DNA of 64,000 nt from Bacteroidetes bacterium HGW-Bacteroidetes-6 (GCA_002842495.1 PHDB01000003.1:1-64000); one strand, 5' to 3'; numbered from the stretch's first letter, positions 44,624 to 54,927 are shown. Notes: generated by a model not told the origin, from the sequence alone. Program-made: numbers and translations.

Positions 44624-45076
44624 ATGAAAAAAAGAAAAAAATCTGTTTTATTCATAGCCTTATGCGTAATGTCGGCTATGGGTGGTACTTTTGGAGTATT
44701 ACTTGGCGTGCTGAGTATTATCGATCTCGATTTAATTACTTTTGCTGCTCGTGTTCCGGGATACACCTCAATCAAGTCGTTGACATACGACGCAAGTACC
44801 CTTTACCCTTACGCTAAAATTGTTTTCTACGGATTGTCGCTTGCCGGAGCAATTATAATGTTTCAATTACAAAAGAGGGGGTTTTATTTTTATGCCTCTG
44901 CTCAATTGGCATTGCTTATTATCCCTTATTTAATGTGGAATCAGCCTGCAGCACTGGTGTTTTTCACAGACTTGCCTGACATGATATTTACGTTTGCTTT
45001 TATTGGAGCTTATGCTATTTATTTGCCTGCAATGCGTCAGGTCTCGTTGCCAGAAGCAAGCGGAACTGAAAAATAG
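44624..45076 (+). CDS. Four-helix membrane protein, 150 aa
   Basis: Not recognised. There are about four hydrophobic segments (residues about 8-32, 62-80, 85-105 and 115-135), with a positive N-terminus (MKKRKKS). It lies 37 bases after the ABC gene and could be co-transcribed with it. Its last 40 bases overlap the 3' end of the sensor kinase gene on the other strand. Confidence 0.6.
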   Translation: MKKRKKSVLFIALCVMSAMGGTFGVLLGVLSIIDLDLITFAARVPGYTSIKSLTYDASTLYPYAKIVFYGLSLAGAIIMFQLQKRGFYFYASAQLALLIIPYLMWNQPAALVFFTDLPDMIFTFAFIGAYAIYLPAMRQVSLPEASGTEK

Positions 45077-47109
45077 AAAGTAGTTCCTTTCTCGGGTATA
45101 CTTTCGAGCCAGATTCGGCCTTTGTTTTTCTCAACAAAGTCCTTACACAATACAAGACCAAGTCCACTGCCTTTTTCGCTGGCAGTACCTGTGCGAATAT
45201 GAGCTTGTCCTAAATCGAACAATTGTTCCTGTTGCTTTTTTTCAATTCCGATACCACTATCTTTTACAAAGAAAATACAATCGTTACCATTGATACGATA
45301 GCCAACTTCGATGGTGCCGCCTAGGGGAGTAAATTTAACAGCATTCGACATCAGGTTACGAATAACAGTGTTAAGCATGTTGATGTCTGCAAAAATTTCG
45401 GCTTGTTTTGATTCTGGCACAAGTTCTATTTTGATTTGCTTTGTTTTGATAGAAGCTTCGTGCAAATCAATATTTTCGTCGATTATAAAGTGCGCGGCAA
45501 AACGACTTGGATTGTAACTCAAACGTCCGGTTTGCGAACGCGACCACATCAACAGGTTTTCAAGTAAATTACCGGTACGGTTTACAATTTTTTCAAATTC
45601 ATCAATCAAGGATTGTCGTTCTTCCATTGAAAGTGTATCGTAATCGCGCTTCATTATGCGTACAAAACTCACCATGCTCGCAAGGGGGTTACGCAAATCG
45701 TGCGAGATAATAGAAAAAAACTGGTCTTTGGCCATGTTCGATTCGGCCAATTTTCCTTCACTGAACTTAAGTTGCTCGTTGATAGCAACAAGCTGATGAT
45801 TGGCTTCGTCGAGTCGACGACTGTTTTTCCGACGTTCGGTCGATTGATAAACAAGCAATCCGATAAGCACAATAGCAAAGGCCAATCCAATAAGCAAGTA
45901 ATACCGGATGAATCGGTTATTTTCAATTTTAAGCCTGTCGATAATTGATTTTTGTCTCAGGATTTTATTCTCCGATTCGAGCTGATTGATAGCGTTTTTC
46001 TTTTCAACATCGGCCAAATATTTCATTTGATCTTGTCCGAAAACCGAATCGTTGAGAGCCATTTGCTGTGTACGGGCTCTGTATGCGTTCGGAAAGTCGT
46101 TCCGCTGTTCGTAAAGAGCTGCAAGCATTTCATATGCATCTATCAACTCGCGCTTGGCGCCTAGTTCAGTTCCAATTTTGATTGCTATATTCAGATTCTT
46201 TAAAGCCAATGTCGATTCGCCTAGTTGGAAATTGGCTCCGGCAATATTGATGTATGAAATCATTATACTATGTTTGTCGCCGATTTTTTCTTTCATATCA
46301 AGCGACAGTTGATAGTATTCCAAAGCCTTGTTGTAGCTTCCATCCTCATTGTAAAGAAGCCCAATGTTTCCGTAGGCAATCGACAACAAGCGGGCATCGT
46401 TGAATTCCTGACCAATGCTCACGCATTTAAAGAGTAAATTTTCGGCATCTTGCTTTCGGCCCGTTTTATTGTAAATAATGGCAATATTCAAGTAAATTTT
46501 GCCCATGCCTACTCTGTCATTTTCAGAGCTGAATATTTCGAGCGACTTCTGATAGTTTGTGAGTGCCGATTTAAAATTACCCATATTGTCGTAAACAATG
46601 CCCATCAGATTGTAAGCCATAGCCATGATCTGAAGGTCCTCTGTTTGTCTCGATAATATCAAAGCATTCGATGCATATTCGAGAGCTTTTGGATAATCGG
46701 CAAGTCGGTTGCTGATCGAAGCCAGATCAAGCAACGCCTGAGCTGTATTGTGAACATCGCCAAGTTCTCTGAATAATGAAATAGATCGTATCAGGTTCGA
46801 ATAGGCCAATTCGTATTCGCCAGTGATGATTTTCAAATTTCCGATCTGCATGTACGACATGGCAAGACCCTCTTTGTAATTCATACTGTCACTCAACGAG
46901 ATAGATCGTTGTAAAATTGATTCAGCTGCATGAGGGTTAGTACGTGCATATTCCTGTCCCAAAATAAGCATGATGTTTACTCTGGCAGTGTCCGATTTTT
47001 CGGCTAATAGTTTTTCCAGACTATCGGTGCTTTGCTGCTGGGCAGTTGCTCCGACAGAAATAGTAAACATTAATACAATGTAAAATATTGAATATTTGAA
47101 TTCTACCAT
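45037..47109 (-). CDS. TPR-containing sensor histidine kinase
   Basis: 690 residues: signal or first helix (about 7-23), then about eight TPR/tetratricopeptide-like repeats (residues about 45-360), a short coiled coil, one membrane helix (YYLLIGLAFAIVLIGLLVY, about 403-421), a second coiled coil and the kinase. His470 in FFSIISHDLRNP is the phospho-acceptor; the N box NAVKFTP and G boxes DSGIGIE and GSGLGLVL complete the HATPase. There is no receiver domain and no response regulator nearby. The TPR region is periplasmic and likely senses a protein or peptide. It is divergent from the PrkA cluster. Confidence 0.92.
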   Translation of the reverse strand: MVEFKYSIFYIVLMFTISVGATAQQQSTDSLEKLLAEKSDTARVNIMLILGQEYARTNPHAAESILQRSISLSDSMNYKEGLAMSYMQIGNLKIITGEYELAYSNLIRSISLFRELGDVHNTAQALLDLASISNRLADYPKALEYASNALILSRQTEDLQIMAMAYNLMGIVYDNMGNFKSALTNYQKSLEIFSSENDRVGMGKIYLNIAIIYNKTGRKQDAENLLFKCVSIGQEFNDARLLSIAYGNIGLLYNEDGSYNKALEYYQLSLDMKEKIGDKHSIMISYINIAGANFQLGESTLALKNLNIAIKIGTELGAKRELIDAYEMLAALYEQRNDFPNAYRARTQQMALNDSVFGQDQMKYLADVEKKNAINQLESENKILRQKSIIDRLKIENNRFIRYYLLIGLAFAIVLIGLLVYQSTERRKNSRRLDEANHQLVAINEQLKFSEGKLAESNMAKDQFFSIISHDLRNPLASMVSFVRIMKRDYDTLSMEERQSLIDEFEKIVNRTGNLLENLLMWSRSQTGRLSYNPSRFAAHFIIDENIDLHEASIKTKQIKIELVPESKQAEIFADINMLNTVIRNLMSNAVKFTPLGGTIEVGYRINGNDCIFFVKDSGIGIEKKQQEQLFDLGQAHIRTGTASEKGSGLGLVLCKDFVEKNKGRIWLESIPEKGTTFYFSVPLASGNET

Positions 47110-47536: not shown

Positions 47537-49621
47537 ATGGCAAAAAAGATTATTGCTCCGGTTATAAAGACTCAGCCTGCATCGCTGGGTGAGCATCTTG
47601 TAAAATTGCAAGCCGGCGACCGCCGATTCGAAAACGTTTTTCAATCAGTATCTCGTATGATTCTCGACGGATCCGGGAAAGTTGAGAAAACCACTATTAA
47701 TGGCAAAACAACTTACGACTTCATGCTTTTTCGCGAAGGCAAGAAGCATATTATTGGAATGTACGACGAAATAAACTCGTTTGTATCGTTTGTGAAAGAT
47801 GCTGCCGAAGGTGGCAGTTCTTCCGAAATGGCTTTTGTACTTATAGGCGAGCCTGGAAACGGAAAAACTTTTTTTGTCGATTTTCTTAGCGCAAAATACC
47901 GCGAGTTTGTTTCACAACCCGAAAACATGCGCTATACATTCCGCTTCAACAATACCGATGCCACCGGGCGCTATGGAAAAATAAACCGTGTTGAAAGTCA
48001 GACCTACGAAGATCCGATGATTTTGGCCATGAATCTTTTCGACAACGTTGACGAAAACAAATTGTTTATTTCGAAATTCGGATTCAGTGATCAGCAGATT
48101 GAAAAAATGTACAGAGCCTACAGACCACTTGGAGCTTGCTCTTATTTTATTTACAATCAAATGAAAGAATATTATGGTTCTGTTGAGAAGCTGCTCGAGA
48201 ATATAGATATCATTCCTGTACCGGTAAGCGAATCGCGTGGTACTCTTACCGGGAAATATGCTGCCAAAGACAAAATCACCAGTAGTTCGGTCGATTTGCT
48301 GGGCGACGAAAGTATAAGTCGTTTGCTTCATCTTGCCGATGCTGACAACCCGTATCGCTTCGATTTGCGCCGTGGCGCATTGGCGCGTGTTGCTTGTGGA
48401 GGTATCCACTTTGCCGACGAAATTTTCAAAAACAAACGCGATCTTGTACAAGTGTATTTAGGTGTTATTCAGAACCGTACAATCGAAATGGAAGGCTTTA
48501 AGTGGCCACTCGACACACTGATTGTTGCTACTTCAAACAATGCTGAGTTTGCCCGATTTCAGGAAGAAAAAGAACAGGCTCCAATTATCGACCGCTGTCG
48601 CCTAACCTATATGTCGCACAACACCAATCTGCATCTTCAGAAACAACTTACAGGATATTCTTTGGGCGGTAAAGAAAAAACCACATTCATGGGCAAAAAG
48701 CTCCATATCGATCCCAATCTCAATCAGGCGTTGTCTACAGCTTTCATTCTCACACGTATGCCACAGAATGAAAAACTGAATCCGGTTGAAATGATGAAGC
48801 TTGCAGCCGGAGAAGTGGCTGGTGAAAAGAGCATCCGCACATTAGCCGAAGTGGTGAACGAACTCAACTCCGATGCCGATATCACCCGCCGTTTTGGGCA
48901 GAAAGGACTTGGACATCGCAATTTGGGTCGTGCTATTCAAATTCTGCTCGAACAAAGCGAAACACAAGAAGGCGAGTGCATGTATGCATACGATGTTTTC
49001 ACCTCTATCGATAAGGTTATTCTCGACTACGTTCAGGACCAGAACGATAGAATTAAATTCCAAAACGACATTAAAATTGCCCGCAAACTGCATCGCGAAA
49101 ACATTATGACCGCTATTTTCAATGCATACATGAACGAAGCCAATGCAATTGAGAAAGATGTGATGAACTATGTGAATATGATTATTGGAATCGACGCTAA
49201 AAATCTTGGGCCCAACCGAATCTGGACTTATCAGGATCCTCAAACCAAAAAGCTGGTAAGTGTTCGCATCGACGAATCGTATATCAATAGTGTGGAAGAA
49301 CGTCTGGGACTTAAGAGCGATGAACAGAAGCAGAGTTTCCGCACCACCATCACCAAGATTTATGGTCAAAAAATGATTACGGAACCCAATTACAACTTCA
49401 TGGACAACAACGACCTGGTAAAAGCTGTAACTGATGTCAGGTTGAAAAGCGACATTGCCGGGGCTGGAAGTCTGGTGGGAGCTTTGTCGAACAGGAACAA
49501 CGAAGACAACAACCGGCTTTATCACCGTATGATTGAAACCATGGTAAAAATGCTTGGTTATTGCCCGACATGCGCCGAAAAAACCATTGAATATTTCTGT
49601 ACGCAGGATGATGCGAATTAA
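47537..49621 (+). CDS. prkA: PrkA-type AAA+ serine protein kinase, first copy
   Basis: 694 residues from ATG 47537. The AAA+ core has Walker A GEPGNGKT (104-111), a Walker-B-like HFADEIFKN, the sensor region IVATSNNAEFARF and an arginine-finger region IIDRCRLTYMSHN, all in the order of E. coli YeaG. The C-terminal PrkA segment (about residues 540-690) is also recognisable: YVNMIIGI, RDPDTG-like YQDPQTKKL, and the final MVKMLGYCPTCAEKTIEYFC. PrkA proteins bind ATP; YeaG autophosphorylates and acts with YeaH in starvation responses, and a Bacillus PrkA has been reported to be a protease. The stop overlaps the yeaH start (TAATG), suggesting coupled translation. Confidence 0.9.
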   Translation: MAKKIIAPVIKTQPASLGEHLVKLQAGDRRFENVFQSVSRMILDGSGKVEKTTINGKTTYDFMLFREGKKHIIGMYDEINSFVSFVKDAAEGGSSSEMAFVLIGEPGNGKTFFVDFLSAKYREFVSQPENMRYTFRFNNTDATGRYGKINRVESQTYEDPMILAMNLFDNVDENKLFISKFGFSDQQIEKMYRAYRPLGACSYFIYNQMKEYYGSVEKLLENIDIIPVPVSESRGTLTGKYAAKDKITSSSVDLLGDESISRLLHLADADNPYRFDLRRGALARVACGGIHFADEIFKNKRDLVQVYLGVIQNRTIEMEGFKWPLDTLIVATSNNAEFARFQEEKEQAPIIDRCRLTYMSHNTNLHLQKQLTGYSLGGKEKTTFMGKKLHIDPNLNQALSTAFILTRMPQNEKLNPVEMMKLAAGEVAGEKSIRTLAEVVNELNSDADITRRFGQKGLGHRNLGRAIQILLEQSETQEGECMYAYDVFTSIDKVILDYVQDQNDRIKFQNDIKIARKLHRENIMTAIFNAYMNEANAIEKDVMNYVNMIIGIDAKNLGPNRIWTYQDPQTKKLVSVRIDESYINSVEERLGLKSDEQKQSFRTTITKIYGQKMITEPNYNFMDNNDLVKAVTDVRLKSDIAGAGSLVGALSNRNNEDNNRLYHRMIETMVKMLGYCPTCAEKTIEYFCTQDDAN

Positions 49622-51015
49622 TGGTAGAGTCGTTACATACAACGTATCTACGAAATAGAGAACACGAAACAATGAACGACAATCAACAAAACAATACACC
49701 TCTTTCTCCTGACGAATACATCAGCCGAGAGAAAGATATCATTGATTCGCTGCGTACAACTGTCGAAGAGAATGTGTCACCTCACTTTTTATCGTTGTAT
49801 AGTATGCACGATTGGATGGTGTTGCCCGGCTATTCTGCTCCGGCTCACGATGCCCGACTGATGCTTCGTTCGCTCGAAGATTTACTTGAACAGGACCGAC
49901 GACGCGAAGAAGATGGTTTTACACGACGTATCCGCCTTGGAAAGCTTGTGAAACCCGGCAAAGGGAAAAAAAATAAAATAGTGATTGTCCCTACAACCAC
50001 CGAACCCAAATTTTACCATGACGATAGTGTAACCGAAGAAGAAACAACGGGAGGTTCGGGCGAAGGCGAAGAAGGCGAAGTTATCGGAAAACAAAAAGCG
50101 CAACCCGAACCAGGCGAAGGCGAAGGACAGGGAGCCGGACAAGGCGAAGGTGGAGGACACGATACCGGTTCGGATGTTTACGATCTGGGGCGAATCCTTA
50201 CGCAGAAATTTCAGCTTCCCAACATCAAGCCCAAAGGGAAAAAACGTAGTCTGTCGAAAATCACATACGATCTCACCGACCGAAATCGCGGATTTGGCCA
50301 GTTGCTTGAAAAAAAATTAACAATTAAACGGATTGTGGAAACCAACATACAACTTGGCAATATCAATCCCGGTGAACCCATTGATACCAATAAGCTTATT
50401 ATTGGGCCACGCGACCAGGTTTTTCGTATTCTTTCAGCTGAAAAAGATTTTGAAAATCAGGCAATTGTATTTTTTGTGCGCGACTACAGCGGATCAATGC
50501 AAGGAAAGCCAACTGAGGTAATTGCAACGCAACATCTGTTTATTTACAGTTGGCTGATGTATCAGTATAGCAACAATGTGGTAAGTCGTTTTATAGTCCA
50601 CGATACCGAAGCTAAAGAGGTAGATGATTTCCAACAATACTATCAATTGCAGGTGGCAGGAGGAACACGTGTGGCACCTGCTTTTACTTTGGTGAACAAA
50701 ATAATTGCTACCGAAAATCTGGCTCGCGACTACAATATATATGTGTTTTACGGCACTGATGGAGACGACTGGGACAGCGATGGAAAAGAGTTGACTGCCG
50801 AACTTAATAAACTTTTGCCTGTGTCAAGCCGTGTGGGATTTACCGTGGCCAAAAACTCATGGACTGGTGAAAATCAAACAACAGTAGAAAAAAACATAAC
50901 CACTGCTGGTTTTGCTGAAAAAAGAAGTAAGGAGTTCCGCATTGATGGATTTTCGTCGGATACTGCCGATGAAAACAGGATTATTGAATCGATTAAAAAA
51001 TTAGTCAGCGACTAA
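49621..51015 (+). CDS. yeaH: YeaH/YhbH-family (DUF444) von Willebrand A protein
   Basis: 464 residues from ATG 49621; a second in-frame ATG at 49672 is possible. After an N-terminal domain a Gly/Glu-rich linker (about residues 140-182) separates a basic segment from the VWA domain. The metal-ion site is visible: DYSGSM at 288-293 (DxSxS), the threonine in GGTRVAP and the aspartate in YGTDGDD. YeaH is the VWA partner of PrkA in Enterobacteria. The combination of AAA+ ATPase with VWA parallels MoxR-VWA chaperone systems (inference). The gene overlaps prkA by one base and is followed 10 bases later by spoVR. Confidence 0.93.
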   Translation: MVESLHTTYLRNREHETMNDNQQNNTPLSPDEYISREKDIIDSLRTTVEENVSPHFLSLYSMHDWMVLPGYSAPAHDARLMLRSLEDLLEQDRRREEDGFTRRIRLGKLVKPGKGKKNKIVIVPTTTEPKFYHDDSVTEEETTGGSGEGEEGEVIGKQKAQPEPGEGEGQGAGQGEGGGHDTGSDVYDLGRILTQKFQLPNIKPKGKKRSLSKITYDLTDRNRGFGQLLEKKLTIKRIVETNIQLGNINPGEPIDTNKLIIGPRDQVFRILSAEKDFENQAIVFFVRDYSGSMQGKPTEVIATQHLFIYSWLMYQYSNNVVSRFIVHDTEAKEVDDFQQYYQLQVAGGTRVAPAFTLVNKIIATENLARDYNIYVFYGTDGDDWDSDGKELTAELNKLLPVSSRVGFTVAKNSWTGENQTTVEKNITTAGFAEKRSKEFRIDGFSSDTADENRIIESIKKLVSD

Positions 51016-51021
51016 AGGAGG
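51014..51021 (+). promoter_or_regulatory. Strong Shine-Dalgarno site of spoVR
   Basis: AAAGGAGG lies 4 bases from ATG 51026 and overlaps the yeaH stop codon. Full-strength Shine-Dalgarno sites are rare in Bacteroidota, so initiation of spoVR appears to be reinforced within the operon. Confidence 0.7.
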
Positions 51022-51025
51022 AATA

Positions 51026-52627
51026 ATGTATCTGATCGATCAACATACAAAAAGCATCATGGAACAATGCAAGGTGCGGGCCCTCGGAGCAGGACTGCAT
51101 TTTGGTCATGAATCGCTTGAATACATTGTCTCCAATAAAGATTTGTTAGAGTTATCACCCAAAGTGATGATTCCGACATTATACGATTTTTGGGTAAACG
51201 ATGTGGATGTATTGAAGGAATATGGAAAATACAAACTCTACCCTTCGAATCCCTACGAAACGGTAATCAATAGCCGACCGGCAATTTCGTTTTACAACGA
51301 CAACAATCCTGACTGGATGAACATCATGATATTTTATCATGTACTTGGCCATATCGACTTTTTTCAAAACAATCGCATGTTTGAGCATACCTGGAGCGAC
51401 GATTTTGTTGGTGTTGCGCTAAGCGACAAGCGATTGATTGCATCGTATCGTAGCAAATACGGTCGTTGGACAGACTATGTGCTGGAGTTTGCCCGAAGTA
51501 TCGATAATATAACAGGCTATTTTCAAACACTGGCACGACTCGATTATCCTGAAGGCATGGAGCCCGAACCCATGGTTTCGTTTTATTTCAACTACTTTCT
51601 CCCCGATGTGCTGAAAGCGGCTGAACTTGCTATCTACAAAGAACAGGAACGCTACAACGATCTTTTCATTTCGCAAGGCGAAGTGGGAGTCACAGCTTTC
51701 TTTGCCGAAGTAAAAAACAAACATCCGGAATTCGAAAGTGCCTTCAAAAGTTTTCGAAAAGTAGATGCCTCAACTGATTTACTCGAATTTATTCGCGACC
51801 ACAGTCCATTTCTGAAAAAGGATTCGAACAGTTGGATGAAAGCGATTCTTACTATTGTTAGAAATACAGCTCAGTATTTTGCTCCGCAAATCAGAACCAA
51901 AATCCTAAACGAAGGCTGGGCCAGCTATTGGCACGATAAACTGTTCCGTACCGATGAACGAATCAAAGGACACGAGGTTGGTTACGCCGGACTTAATGCT
52001 GGTGTTACCTCGCTTAGTCGTGTTGGATTAAATCCATATGCCATCGGGTTGCGTTTGATTCAGTATGTGGAAGAATTGGCCGAAAAGGGCAAAATGTCGA
52101 TGGATTATCAACGATTGATTTTGACCAACGACAAATTGGCTTTCAATGCAAAAACCGGCAAAGGAATCGACAGTATTTTTGAGCTCAGGAAGAATTTTTC
52201 CGACTTCATGCTTATCAACACCTTTGTGAATCAGGAATTTGTTGACATGCATGATCTTTTTGTAGTAGGCAAGCGTCCCAATCCAGAACAGGGAACCATT
52301 GAGTATTATGTAAAAAGTCGCAAGGCGGCCGATTATAAAAAAATGCTTCTCGATAGCTTATATCATCCGCCATTGATTGTAGCCGACCCTGATAAAACAA
52401 CCGATGAATCGCTCTACATGGTGCATCGTTTCGAAGGGAAACAGCTTATTCGCGATTTTATACCCGAGGTGCTTGTTGCACTCAGCTTTTTGTGGGGAGG
52501 AGAAGTTAATCTCGAAACCACCGATATCGTGGTAAATAAAAACGCAGAAACCGAAGCCGACATGTACAGCTTCCAGCGTGTTTTGTTTACCTGTATCGAT
52601 AAAAATGTGACTAAAACCAAATTATAG
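51026..52627 (+). CDS. spoVR: SpoVR-family protein
   Basis: 533 residues, close to E. coli YcgB and Bacillus SpoVR. Conserved signatures are the H-x3-H motif (His105, His109 in YHVLGHIDFFQNN), the central LNEGWASYWHDKLF (residues about 294-307, Glu296 and His303) and VGYAGLNAGVTSLSRVGLNPYAIG. The conserved His and Glu residues look like a metal site, but no activity is established. SpoVR is needed for cortex formation in Bacillus spores; in non-sporulating bacteria it accompanies PrkA and YeaH in stress and envelope contexts. No signal peptide, so cytoplasmic. It is embedded between yeaH and the second PrkA gene with 8-10-bp gaps. Confidence 0.93.
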   Translation: MYLIDQHTKSIMEQCKVRALGAGLHFGHESLEYIVSNKDLLELSPKVMIPTLYDFWVNDVDVLKEYGKYKLYPSNPYETVINSRPAISFYNDNNPDWMNIMIFYHVLGHIDFFQNNRMFEHTWSDDFVGVALSDKRLIASYRSKYGRWTDYVLEFARSIDNITGYFQTLARLDYPEGMEPEPMVSFYFNYFLPDVLKAAELAIYKEQERYNDLFISQGEVGVTAFFAEVKNKHPEFESAFKSFRKVDASTDLLEFIRDHSPFLKKDSNSWMKAILTIVRNTAQYFAPQIRTKILNEGWASYWHDKLFRTDERIKGHEVGYAGLNAGVTSLSRVGLNPYAIGLRLIQYVEELAEKGKMSMDYQRLILTNDKLAFNAKTGKGIDSIFELRKNFSDFMLINTFVNQEFVDMHDLFVVGKRPNPEQGTIEYYVKSRKAADYKKMLLDSLYHPPLIVADPDKTTDESLYMVHRFEGKQLIRDFIPEVLVALSFLWGGEVNLETTDIVVNKNAETEADMYSFQRVLFTCIDKNVTKTKL

Positions 52628-52635
52628 CAAGTACG

Positions 52636-54927
52636 ATGGTCGCCAAAAAAAAGACAACACCCAAAATCTTAGGGATTGATATTGAAGAACACGGCAAAAG
52701 ACTCGAAGCTATTTTGAAATTGTCGCAAGAACTTCGCGAAAAAGACAGGCGCATTCCCATGTCGTACAACGATTTCCTTTTTGCTGCTGCAGGAGAGCCC
52801 GACATTGTGTTTCGTAATATTTTTCAGCTTTTTCACGATATGGTGCACTACTATATCCCTGAAGGCGAAGACGATTATCCGGTAACAGGCGATTCGGTTG
52901 GTTTTATGCAATTCGATACCAACAAATTGCTTGTTGAAGGTGTAGATGAACCATTTTTTTCAGATCGGCTTTTTGCAAATCGCTTTATGAATCTCGCACG
53001 CGATTTTCGCCGTGGAATTCAAAATAATCACATCTATTTTTTCGAGGGCCCTCCGGGAAGCGGAAAATCGACTTTTCTGAACAATTTGCTTGTGAAGCTC
53101 GAAGAATACACCCGATTACCTGAAGGTACACTGTATAAGGTGTATTGGAAAATTGATCTTGCCCGAATAAAACCGGGTCTGCGCGAACAAATTGAAGGCG
53201 AAGACAACGTTCTCGCCGTGAATGAAACCGGAAAAACCCAGCAGGTGATGTTTTCGTGTCCCAATAACGATCATCCCATACTGATGATTCCCAAGGAATT
53301 GCGGCTCAGCTTTCTCAACGAGTTAATCCCCGACAAAGATTTTTTAAAGAAACTAACTAAAAACAAGGAATATGAATGGGTGTTGAAGGATACGCCATGC
53401 TCCATTTGTAGTTCACTATACAATCAACTGATTGATGAGCTCGACGATCCGGCCGAAGTCTTTAATATGATTTATGTTCGCCGGGTTGAATTCAATCGTC
53501 AGTTTGGAAAAGGAATCAGCGTGTGGAATCCGGGCGACGAAGGTATGCGCGGCTACATCACCAACGATAGCTTGCAGCGGTTTTTGAACAATTTTTTCAA
53601 AAGCGACGAATTACGTTTTGTATATTCCGATCTCGCCTACACCAATAATGGAGTGTATGCTTTGATGGATATCAAGGAAAACAATGTAAAACGTTTGCTG
53701 AGTCTGCATGGTGTCATCAGCGACGGTGTCCACAAGGTTGAACACATCGAAGAGAAAGTATCGAGCCTTTTTATGGGCTTACTGAACCCCGAAGACAAAA
53801 AACATTTCGATACCATCCGGTCGTTTCAGGATAGGATTATCTCAGTCAATATTCCTTATGTTCTCGATTACGAAACAGAATCAAGGATTTATCACAACAA
53901 GTTTGGCAAAGACATTGAGCAGCTATTTTTGCCACGGGTATTGCGCAATTTTTCCCGAATAATCGTAAGCTCCCGCCTCAATGTTCAAAGTGAACTCATG
54001 AAAAACTGGCTTAGCGATCCGGAATATTATCGCTCATTGATCGACGACAACCACCTGTTGCTGCGAATGGAGCTGTATCGTGGTCATGTCCCCAATTATC
54101 TGCGCGAAGAAGATGTGAAACGTTTTACTAAAAACATTCGCAAAGAATTGCTCGAACTCAGCGAAACCGAAGGTCGGAGTGGAATTTCAGGTCGTCAGGC
54201 ATTGAGCCTTTTCAACGAATTTGTAACCAAAATTCGTGACAAAGGCCAACTTATTACGATGACTATGGTTGCCGAATTTTTCAGGAATCTGCCCGATAAA
54301 ATAAGTGCTCAAATTCCCAATGGCTTTATTGATGCTTTATTCAGAATTTACGAGATCAATATTCTGCAAGAAGTGAAAGAAGCTATTTTCAACATCAACA
54401 GCAGCCAAATCGATTCCGATATTTGCAATTATCTGAATGCACTTAACTTCGAGCAAGGAGAAACGGTTGTTTCGCAGGAAACCGGTGATGAAATAACCAT
54501 AACACCCGAGTGGCTGGCTGGTATTGAGCGTTATTTATTCGAAGATGGCCTTTCGGAGTCTGAAATCCAAACGCGACGCACAGCTATTCATAAGGAATAC
54601 ATCGCACGAACATTATCGCAGGATATCAAAATCAAAAAAATGAAGATTACTGCAACAGGTCAGTTTCAGCAATTGTTCAGAAAATACTATGATAGTCTGA
54701 AACAACATAGTCTGGAGCCGTATGTGGGTAATGGCAATTTTCGGCGTGCGCTTACCGAGTATCATACCGATAATTTCAATTCGTACGACGAAAAACTGAA
54801 AACCGATATTCGTTTCATGCTGAAAAATTTGCAAAAAAAATTCGACTACACGGCCGAAGGTGCACTTATTGTTGCTTTACATGTGGTTGAAAACAATTTG
54901 GCTGAAGTGTATAAAGATTTGAATTAG
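52636..54927 (+). CDS. PrkA-type AAA+ protein, second divergent copy
   Basis: 763 residues, longer than YeaG (about 640) and than the first copy. An N-terminal extension of about 130 residues precedes Walker A GPPGSGKST (138-146). The NDHPILMIP segment matches the NDHPFCLF region of YeaG, which the first copy lacks. Cys208 next to it and Cys255/Cys258 (CSIC) could form a zinc site not present in YeaG. The arginine-finger region RIISVNIPY and the C-terminal PrkA helices (about 580-760) are present, so the fold is complete. It starts 8 bases after spoVR and is probably the last gene of the cluster. No terminator with T-run was seen downstream. Confidence 0.85.
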   Translation: MVAKKKTTPKILGIDIEEHGKRLEAILKLSQELREKDRRIPMSYNDFLFAAAGEPDIVFRNIFQLFHDMVHYYIPEGEDDYPVTGDSVGFMQFDTNKLLVEGVDEPFFSDRLFANRFMNLARDFRRGIQNNHIYFFEGPPGSGKSTFLNNLLVKLEEYTRLPEGTLYKVYWKIDLARIKPGLREQIEGEDNVLAVNETGKTQQVMFSCPNNDHPILMIPKELRLSFLNELIPDKDFLKKLTKNKEYEWVLKDTPCSICSSLYNQLIDELDDPAEVFNMIYVRRVEFNRQFGKGISVWNPGDEGMRGYITNDSLQRFLNNFFKSDELRFVYSDLAYTNNGVYALMDIKENNVKRLLSLHGVISDGVHKVEHIEEKVSSLFMGLLNPEDKKHFDTIRSFQDRIISVNIPYVLDYETESRIYHNKFGKDIEQLFLPRVLRNFSRIIVSSRLNVQSELMKNWLSDPEYYRSLIDDNHLLLRMELYRGHVPNYLREEDVKRFTKNIRKELLELSETEGRSGISGRQALSLFNEFVTKIRDKGQLITMTMVAEFFRNLPDKISAQIPNGFIDALFRIYEINILQEVKEAIFNINSSQIDSDICNYLNALNFEQGETVVSQETGDEITITPEWLAGIERYLFEDGLSESEIQTRRTAIHKEYIARTLSQDIKIKKMKITATGQFQQLFRKYYDSLKQHSLEPYVGNGNFRRALTEYHTDNFNSYDEKLKTDIRFMLKNLQKKFDYTAEGALIVALHVVENNLAEVYKDLN

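Follow-up and report, generated by a model that had tools for sequence, protein, structure and literature searches.

Two deeply diverged PrkA-type AAA+ proteins share a conserved gene cluster with YeaH and SpoVR in several bacterial phyla

In Bacteroidetes bacterium HGW-Bacteroidetes-6 a four-gene cluster encodes two different PrkA-type AAA+ proteins, here called PrkA1 and PrkA2, together with the VWA protein YeaH (DUF444) and SpoVR. The two PrkAs belong to separate, ancient clades, and the same four genes recur in the same order in several phyla. The PrkA, YeaH and SpoVR proteins occur widely and act in stress and sporulation, and it is disputed whether they work as kinase, protease or remodeller. 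The division of the ATPase between two fixed, non-equivalent subunits speaks for a ring machine rather than a kinase, and the two-PrkA version names residues that can be tested and puts forward SpoVR as the likely client.

Table 1. Genes of the cluster (positions counted from the first base of the window)
Feature	Position	Strand	Description
PrkA1	47537..49621	+	694 aa; AAA+ ATPase and PrkA C-terminal domain
YeaH/DUF444 VWA protein	49621..51015	+	464 aa; MIDAS intact
SpoVR	51026..52627	+	533 aa; candidate metal-site motifs
PrkA2	52636..54927	+	763 aa; deeply diverged PrkA-type AAA+

The window, i.e., the whole stretch of DNA that was analysed, comprises 64,000 nucleotides, and an earlier note on it had described a tandem PrkA-DUF444/VWA-SpoVR-PrkA arrangement at 47537-54927. 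Positions, strand and gene families were confirmed, but not the 1-base overlap of the first two genes. In the two closest relatives YeaH starts at an ATG equivalent to window position 49672, and the overlap is therefore probably an annotation artefact; the true YeaH start is probably 49672 (447 aa), leaving a 50-base gap after PrkA1. In the Pfam search both PrkA domains score above the curated cut-off of 25 bits in PrkA1 (PF06798, 117 bits; PF08298, 51 bits) as well as in PrkA2 (100 and 34 bits, respectively). YeaH matches PF04285 with 113 bits and SpoVR matches PF04293 with 205 bits, both over the cut-off, and YeaH also matches NCBIfam NF003712 with 596 bits (cut-off 421).

In the whole 4.04-Mb assembly two PrkA matches and one SpoVR match were obtained, all from this cluster. 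Contamination of the MAG as the source of the cluster is excluded by two genomes of the same genus, in which PrkA2 is present with 91% and 72% identity; PrkA2 is therefore resident in the lineage and not an assembly accident. Divergent from the cluster lies a gene for a TPR-histidine kinase (45037-47109, minus strand), which could regulate it. No recurrent fifth gene was found beside the related loci, where the commonest flanking cluster resembles signalling kinases.

The PrkA1 alignment was scanned against 84,980 species genomes, which gave 336 relatives, of which the best 80 were kept. The titles among these best 80 of 336 include Bacteroidales, Cytophagales, Kapaibacterium and Ignavibacteria and also Desulfobacterales, KSB1, Fibrobacter and Krumholzibacteriia. 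Where all four genes are complete (52 non-redundant loci), they invariably lie on a single strand in the order PrkA1-YeaH-SpoVR-PrkA2, and the median intergenic gaps are 31, 29 and 15 bases. Because these loci come from several phyla and agree in both order and strand, the arrangement is far beyond chance, and the objection that the pair might not be conserved outside this genome falls away. Locus L122 differs in that PrkA2 is located immediately upstream of PrkA1. Of 395 genomes sampled evenly from the phylum of the window's genome, nine carry a PrkA above the cut-off; eight of them, the window's genome included, have two copies and the ninth has just one PrkA, of the canonical type.

In a PrkA tree of 63 sequences PrkA1 and PrkA2 form separate clades, with a support of 100/100 for PrkA2 and of 100/100 for everything outside PrkA1. 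Both lie outside the canonical clade, sit on very long stems (each about 1.9 substitutions per site) and span Bacteroidota, Desulfobacterota and other phyla. The claim that the two PrkAs are different proteins is thus borne out, and PrkA2 is firmly not a recent duplicate of PrkA1, as this origin is ruled out by the separate, supported clades on long stems. The two proteins share about 20% identity, and PrkA1 is the slower-evolving one (mean distance 0.82 vs 1.91 for PrkA2). In the AU test the grouping of PrkA1 and PrkA2 as sisters was not rejected (p = 0.11), nor were several placements of the copy from a third, diverged form described below, so that either PrkA1 or PrkA2 may be the closer one to canonical PrkA. 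The pairwise distances of the four proteins correlate with each other (r 0.86-0.93), as is expected of a co-inherited unit, and both this correlation and the co-occurrence of the genes owe something to shared ancestry.

The pairing extends to genomes in which the genes are dispersed. Exactly two PrkAs were found in 17/17 genomes reached via the PrkA1 locus, 13 of which had been picked because PrkA2 was absent beside PrkA1 in the stretch examined, and each fully readable second copy matches the profile of PrkA2. SpoVR was present in 14/15 genomes with dispersed genes, the exception being a draft MAG. Taken over phyla, the two PrkAs co-occur with DUF444 and SpoVR, in line with the expectation of the earlier note (52/52 loci, 17/17 genomes with two PrkAs). 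Among the Desulfobacterota genomes with PrkA1, 20/21 have a full-length PrkA2 (>1,000 bits); the remaining one is a 1.9-Mb draft in which PrkA1 lies near a contig end. Of the other genomes in the Desulfobacterota sample, 18 carry canonical PrkA only and four carry the third form.

Assigned from scores and frame lengths, the PrkA types in the phylum to which the Krumholzibacteriia genome belongs are distributed over 24 genomes with at least two hits of the two-PrkA type, five with one such hit, some of which look like contig-end fragments, and eight with canonical PrkA; by the same assignment the KSB1 phylum has the pair in two genomes and canonical PrkA in 28. None of the genomes sampled in four phyla has both the two-PrkA system and a canonical PrkA. 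This suggests that the two versions are alternatives for one role, although the relatedness of the genomes weakens the argument.

The active-site motifs set the two PrkAs apart. PrkA1 has the Walker A motif GEPGNGKT and the arginine-finger motif DRC in 91/91 sequences; its Walker B reads HFADEI in the window, and the DE is present in 85/91 by a strict pattern. PrkA2 retains Walker A and the sensor-1 motif NPxD (75/75 each) and, in the protein studied here, the arginine finger. At the position of the catalytic Glu, PrkA2 has Asp in 74/75 by pattern (MD) and Glu in none. Asp345 of PrkA2 lies six residues past a conserved Gly, which is where PrkA1 and canonical PrkA have their Glu. An exchange of Glu for Asp does not invariably abolish hydrolysis. 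PrkA2 further carries a cysteine insertion of the pattern CP..HP...C..C, present in 75/75 PrkA2 vs 0/91 PrkA1.

A third form of the cluster, PrkA-DUF444-SpoVR-PrkA', is very diverged and was found at L172-L175 (e.g., L172:4031-11645) in the four genomes drawn with the Desulfobacterota. Its first PrkA has Glu at the catalytic position and its last one Asp, which suggests that the combination of an active and a weakened ATPase may be very old or may have evolved twice. A plasmid search for relatives of PrkA2 and of the third-form copy gave no matches. Thermus phage TMA (L131, AP011617.1 45199-54998) carries DUF444, SpoVR, a 616-aa protein and PrkA in tandem, and the 616-aa protein did not match any Pfam family; further Thermus phages and metagenomic phages about 600 kb in size also carry PrkA. 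Two genomes contain two canonical PrkA-YeaH-SpoVR operons each (L176/L177 and L178/L179).

YeaH has its MIDAS at D288-x-S290-x-S292, T349 and D380; the site is kept in 75/75 YeaH, and all positions are also found across canonical YeaHs. In SpoVR the motifs H105-x3-H109, N116 and E296-G-x-A (HxxxH, NEGxA) are near-invariant, and H105, H109, E296, N336 and D393 are invariant over 26 diverse aligned members. These residues may form a putative metal site, although the spacing of the histidines varies: E. coli YcgB has H-x4-H vs H-x3-H here, the YcgB-type SpoVRs having one residue more between the histidines. H-x4-H is seen in the YcgB-type SpoVRs at L126:3713-5242 and L129:7724-9268, and most other aligned SpoVRs have H-x3-H. 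A plain zinc peptidase is not supported. The gluzincin motif HExxH with its catalytic Glu was not found; this SpoVR group has H-V-x-[AG]-H instead. A literature search on SpoVR and metal returned nothing relevant.

The predicted structure of PrkA2 (pLDDT 87) is that of an AAA+ protein, with BchI as the top Foldseek row (E 2e-3) and with NorQ, CbbQ and ChlI matching at VIA Z 9.1-9.6. However, Clp, MCM and RuvB ATPases match equally well (Z 9-10), so that the likeness to MoxR/BchI is not specific and only the AAA+ fold is secure. By sequence, the sole solved PrkA relatives of both PrkAs are 9xip, 9xiq and 9xir ('serine protein kinase'), a protein which carries the canonical-type insertion and Walker B. 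The SpoVR model (pLDDT 77, poor at residues 32-89) gave no confident fold match, its only long match near the top being a weak one with the peptidase domain of a collagenase (Z 5.2, 179 residues, 5.0 A), and no solved structural relative of SpoVR was found.

We propose that the cluster encodes a PrkA-YeaH-SpoVR machine with two AAA+ subunits, a reading to which we give about even chances. PrkA1 would be the principal ATP-hydrolysing ring motor and PrkA2 its obligate, non-equivalent AAA+ partner, which would bind ATP and supply arginine fingers while carrying an altered catalytic residue; it could be placed in a mixed ring or in a second ring. YeaH would couple the ATPase to the client SpoVR via its VWA MIDAS, and SpoVR may be remodelled, activated or loaded with metal by the machine, after the manner of NorQ/NorD or of magnesium chelatase I/D/H. 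Magnesium chelatase likewise pairs two non-equivalent AAA+ subunits. In E. coli, yeaG and yeaH are tied to adaptation to nitrogen starvation (PMC4664914). Gene content and order, co-occurrence, the separate clades and the conserved motifs are observed, and the physical complex, its stoichiometry, SpoVR as its client, the metal and a role in stress are inferred. The earlier suggestion of a hetero-oligomer, or of sequential action of both AAA+ proteins on SpoVR with YeaH as a putative adaptor, is plausible, whereas the envelope-control role suggested along with it found no support. A wider reading, in which an ancient and widespread two-PrkA remodeller with one active and one weakened ATPase would be linked by the VWA protein to SpoVR as an unrecognised metal-dependent enzyme, is more tentative and we hold it to be somewhat doubtful.

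PrkA1 and PrkA2 could also act as separate homo-oligomers, with different clients or in successive steps, which share YeaH and SpoVR and never form one machine. The low identity of about 20%, the slower evolution of PrkA1 (0.82 vs 1.91) and the cysteine insertion confined to PrkA2 (75/75 vs 0/91) would fit such a division of labour, but the near-obligate co-occurrence of unlinked genes and the altered Walker B of PrkA2 better suit a partnered ATPase, which leaves the separate oligomers rather unlikely. Degradation of regulatory proteins by the PrkAs as ATP-dependent unfoldases or proteases, for which YeaH would be the adaptor and SpoVR one substrate or a partner, seems less probable still. A Lon-like protease activity reported for B. 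subtilis PrkA, as cited in PMC13001217, and the Lon-type proteins among the structural matches of PrkA2 speak for it; against it, Pfam finds no protease domain and B. anthracis PrkA showed negligible protease activity (PMC13001217).

Least probable, and in our view very unlikely, is a kinase cascade in which both PrkAs would phosphorylate YeaH, SpoVR or other proteins as serine/threonine kinases. It is favoured by the name of the family and by publications that treat YeaG as a kinase (PMC4664914). However, the HRD motif of the kinase catalytic loop occurs in 0/91 PrkA1, 0/75 PrkA2 and 0/15 canonical PrkA, and it therefore does not define the PrkA family by sequence. In addition, the kinase activity of purified B. 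anthracis PrkA was negligible in vitro, like its protease activity (PMC13001217), and no kinase fold is among the best structural matches of PrkA2, a comparison that barely covers its C-terminal domain.

The canonical system (prkA-yhbH-spoVR, or yeaGH and ycgB, in E. coli, Bacillus, Thermomicrobium and Mesorhizobium) consists of the same three families, with the first three genes ordered as here (PrkA-YeaH-SpoVR). It differs in having one PrkA instead of two, its proteins show roughly 20-27% identity to those studied here, and its PrkA has the Glu but lacks the Walker B Asp, while most members keep the C..C insertion. The two-PrkA system, which the earlier note had put forward as a candidate for an undescribed one, is not undescribed, because in all haloarchaeal genomes available in 2011 two adjacent PrkA genes were always found with DUF444 and SpoVR (PMC3102087). 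Compared by description, that cluster unites the same four gene families with two PrkAs, but its PrkAs are adjacent, whereas here YeaH and SpoVR lie between them (in L122 PrkA2 is beside PrkA1); a Haloferax control gave family hits only. What appears new in the searched literature is the spread over several bacterial phyla, the existence of two clades, the unlinked pairing, the fact that the pair and canonical PrkA exclude each other, and the Asp-for-Glu exchange. NorQ/NorD and other MoxR AAA+/VWA machines as well as magnesium chelatase combine, as here, an AAA+ ring with a MIDAS-bearing VWA protein, and in NorQD this pair drives metal insertion (PMC13036017). The present system differs from the MoxR/VWA machines and magnesium chelatase in that YeaH itself lacks an AAA+ domain and PrkA brings a distinct C-terminal domain, and the place of the metal-bearing client of the MoxR AAA+/VWA metal-insertion machines would here be taken by SpoVR, a putative client with candidate metal-site motifs.
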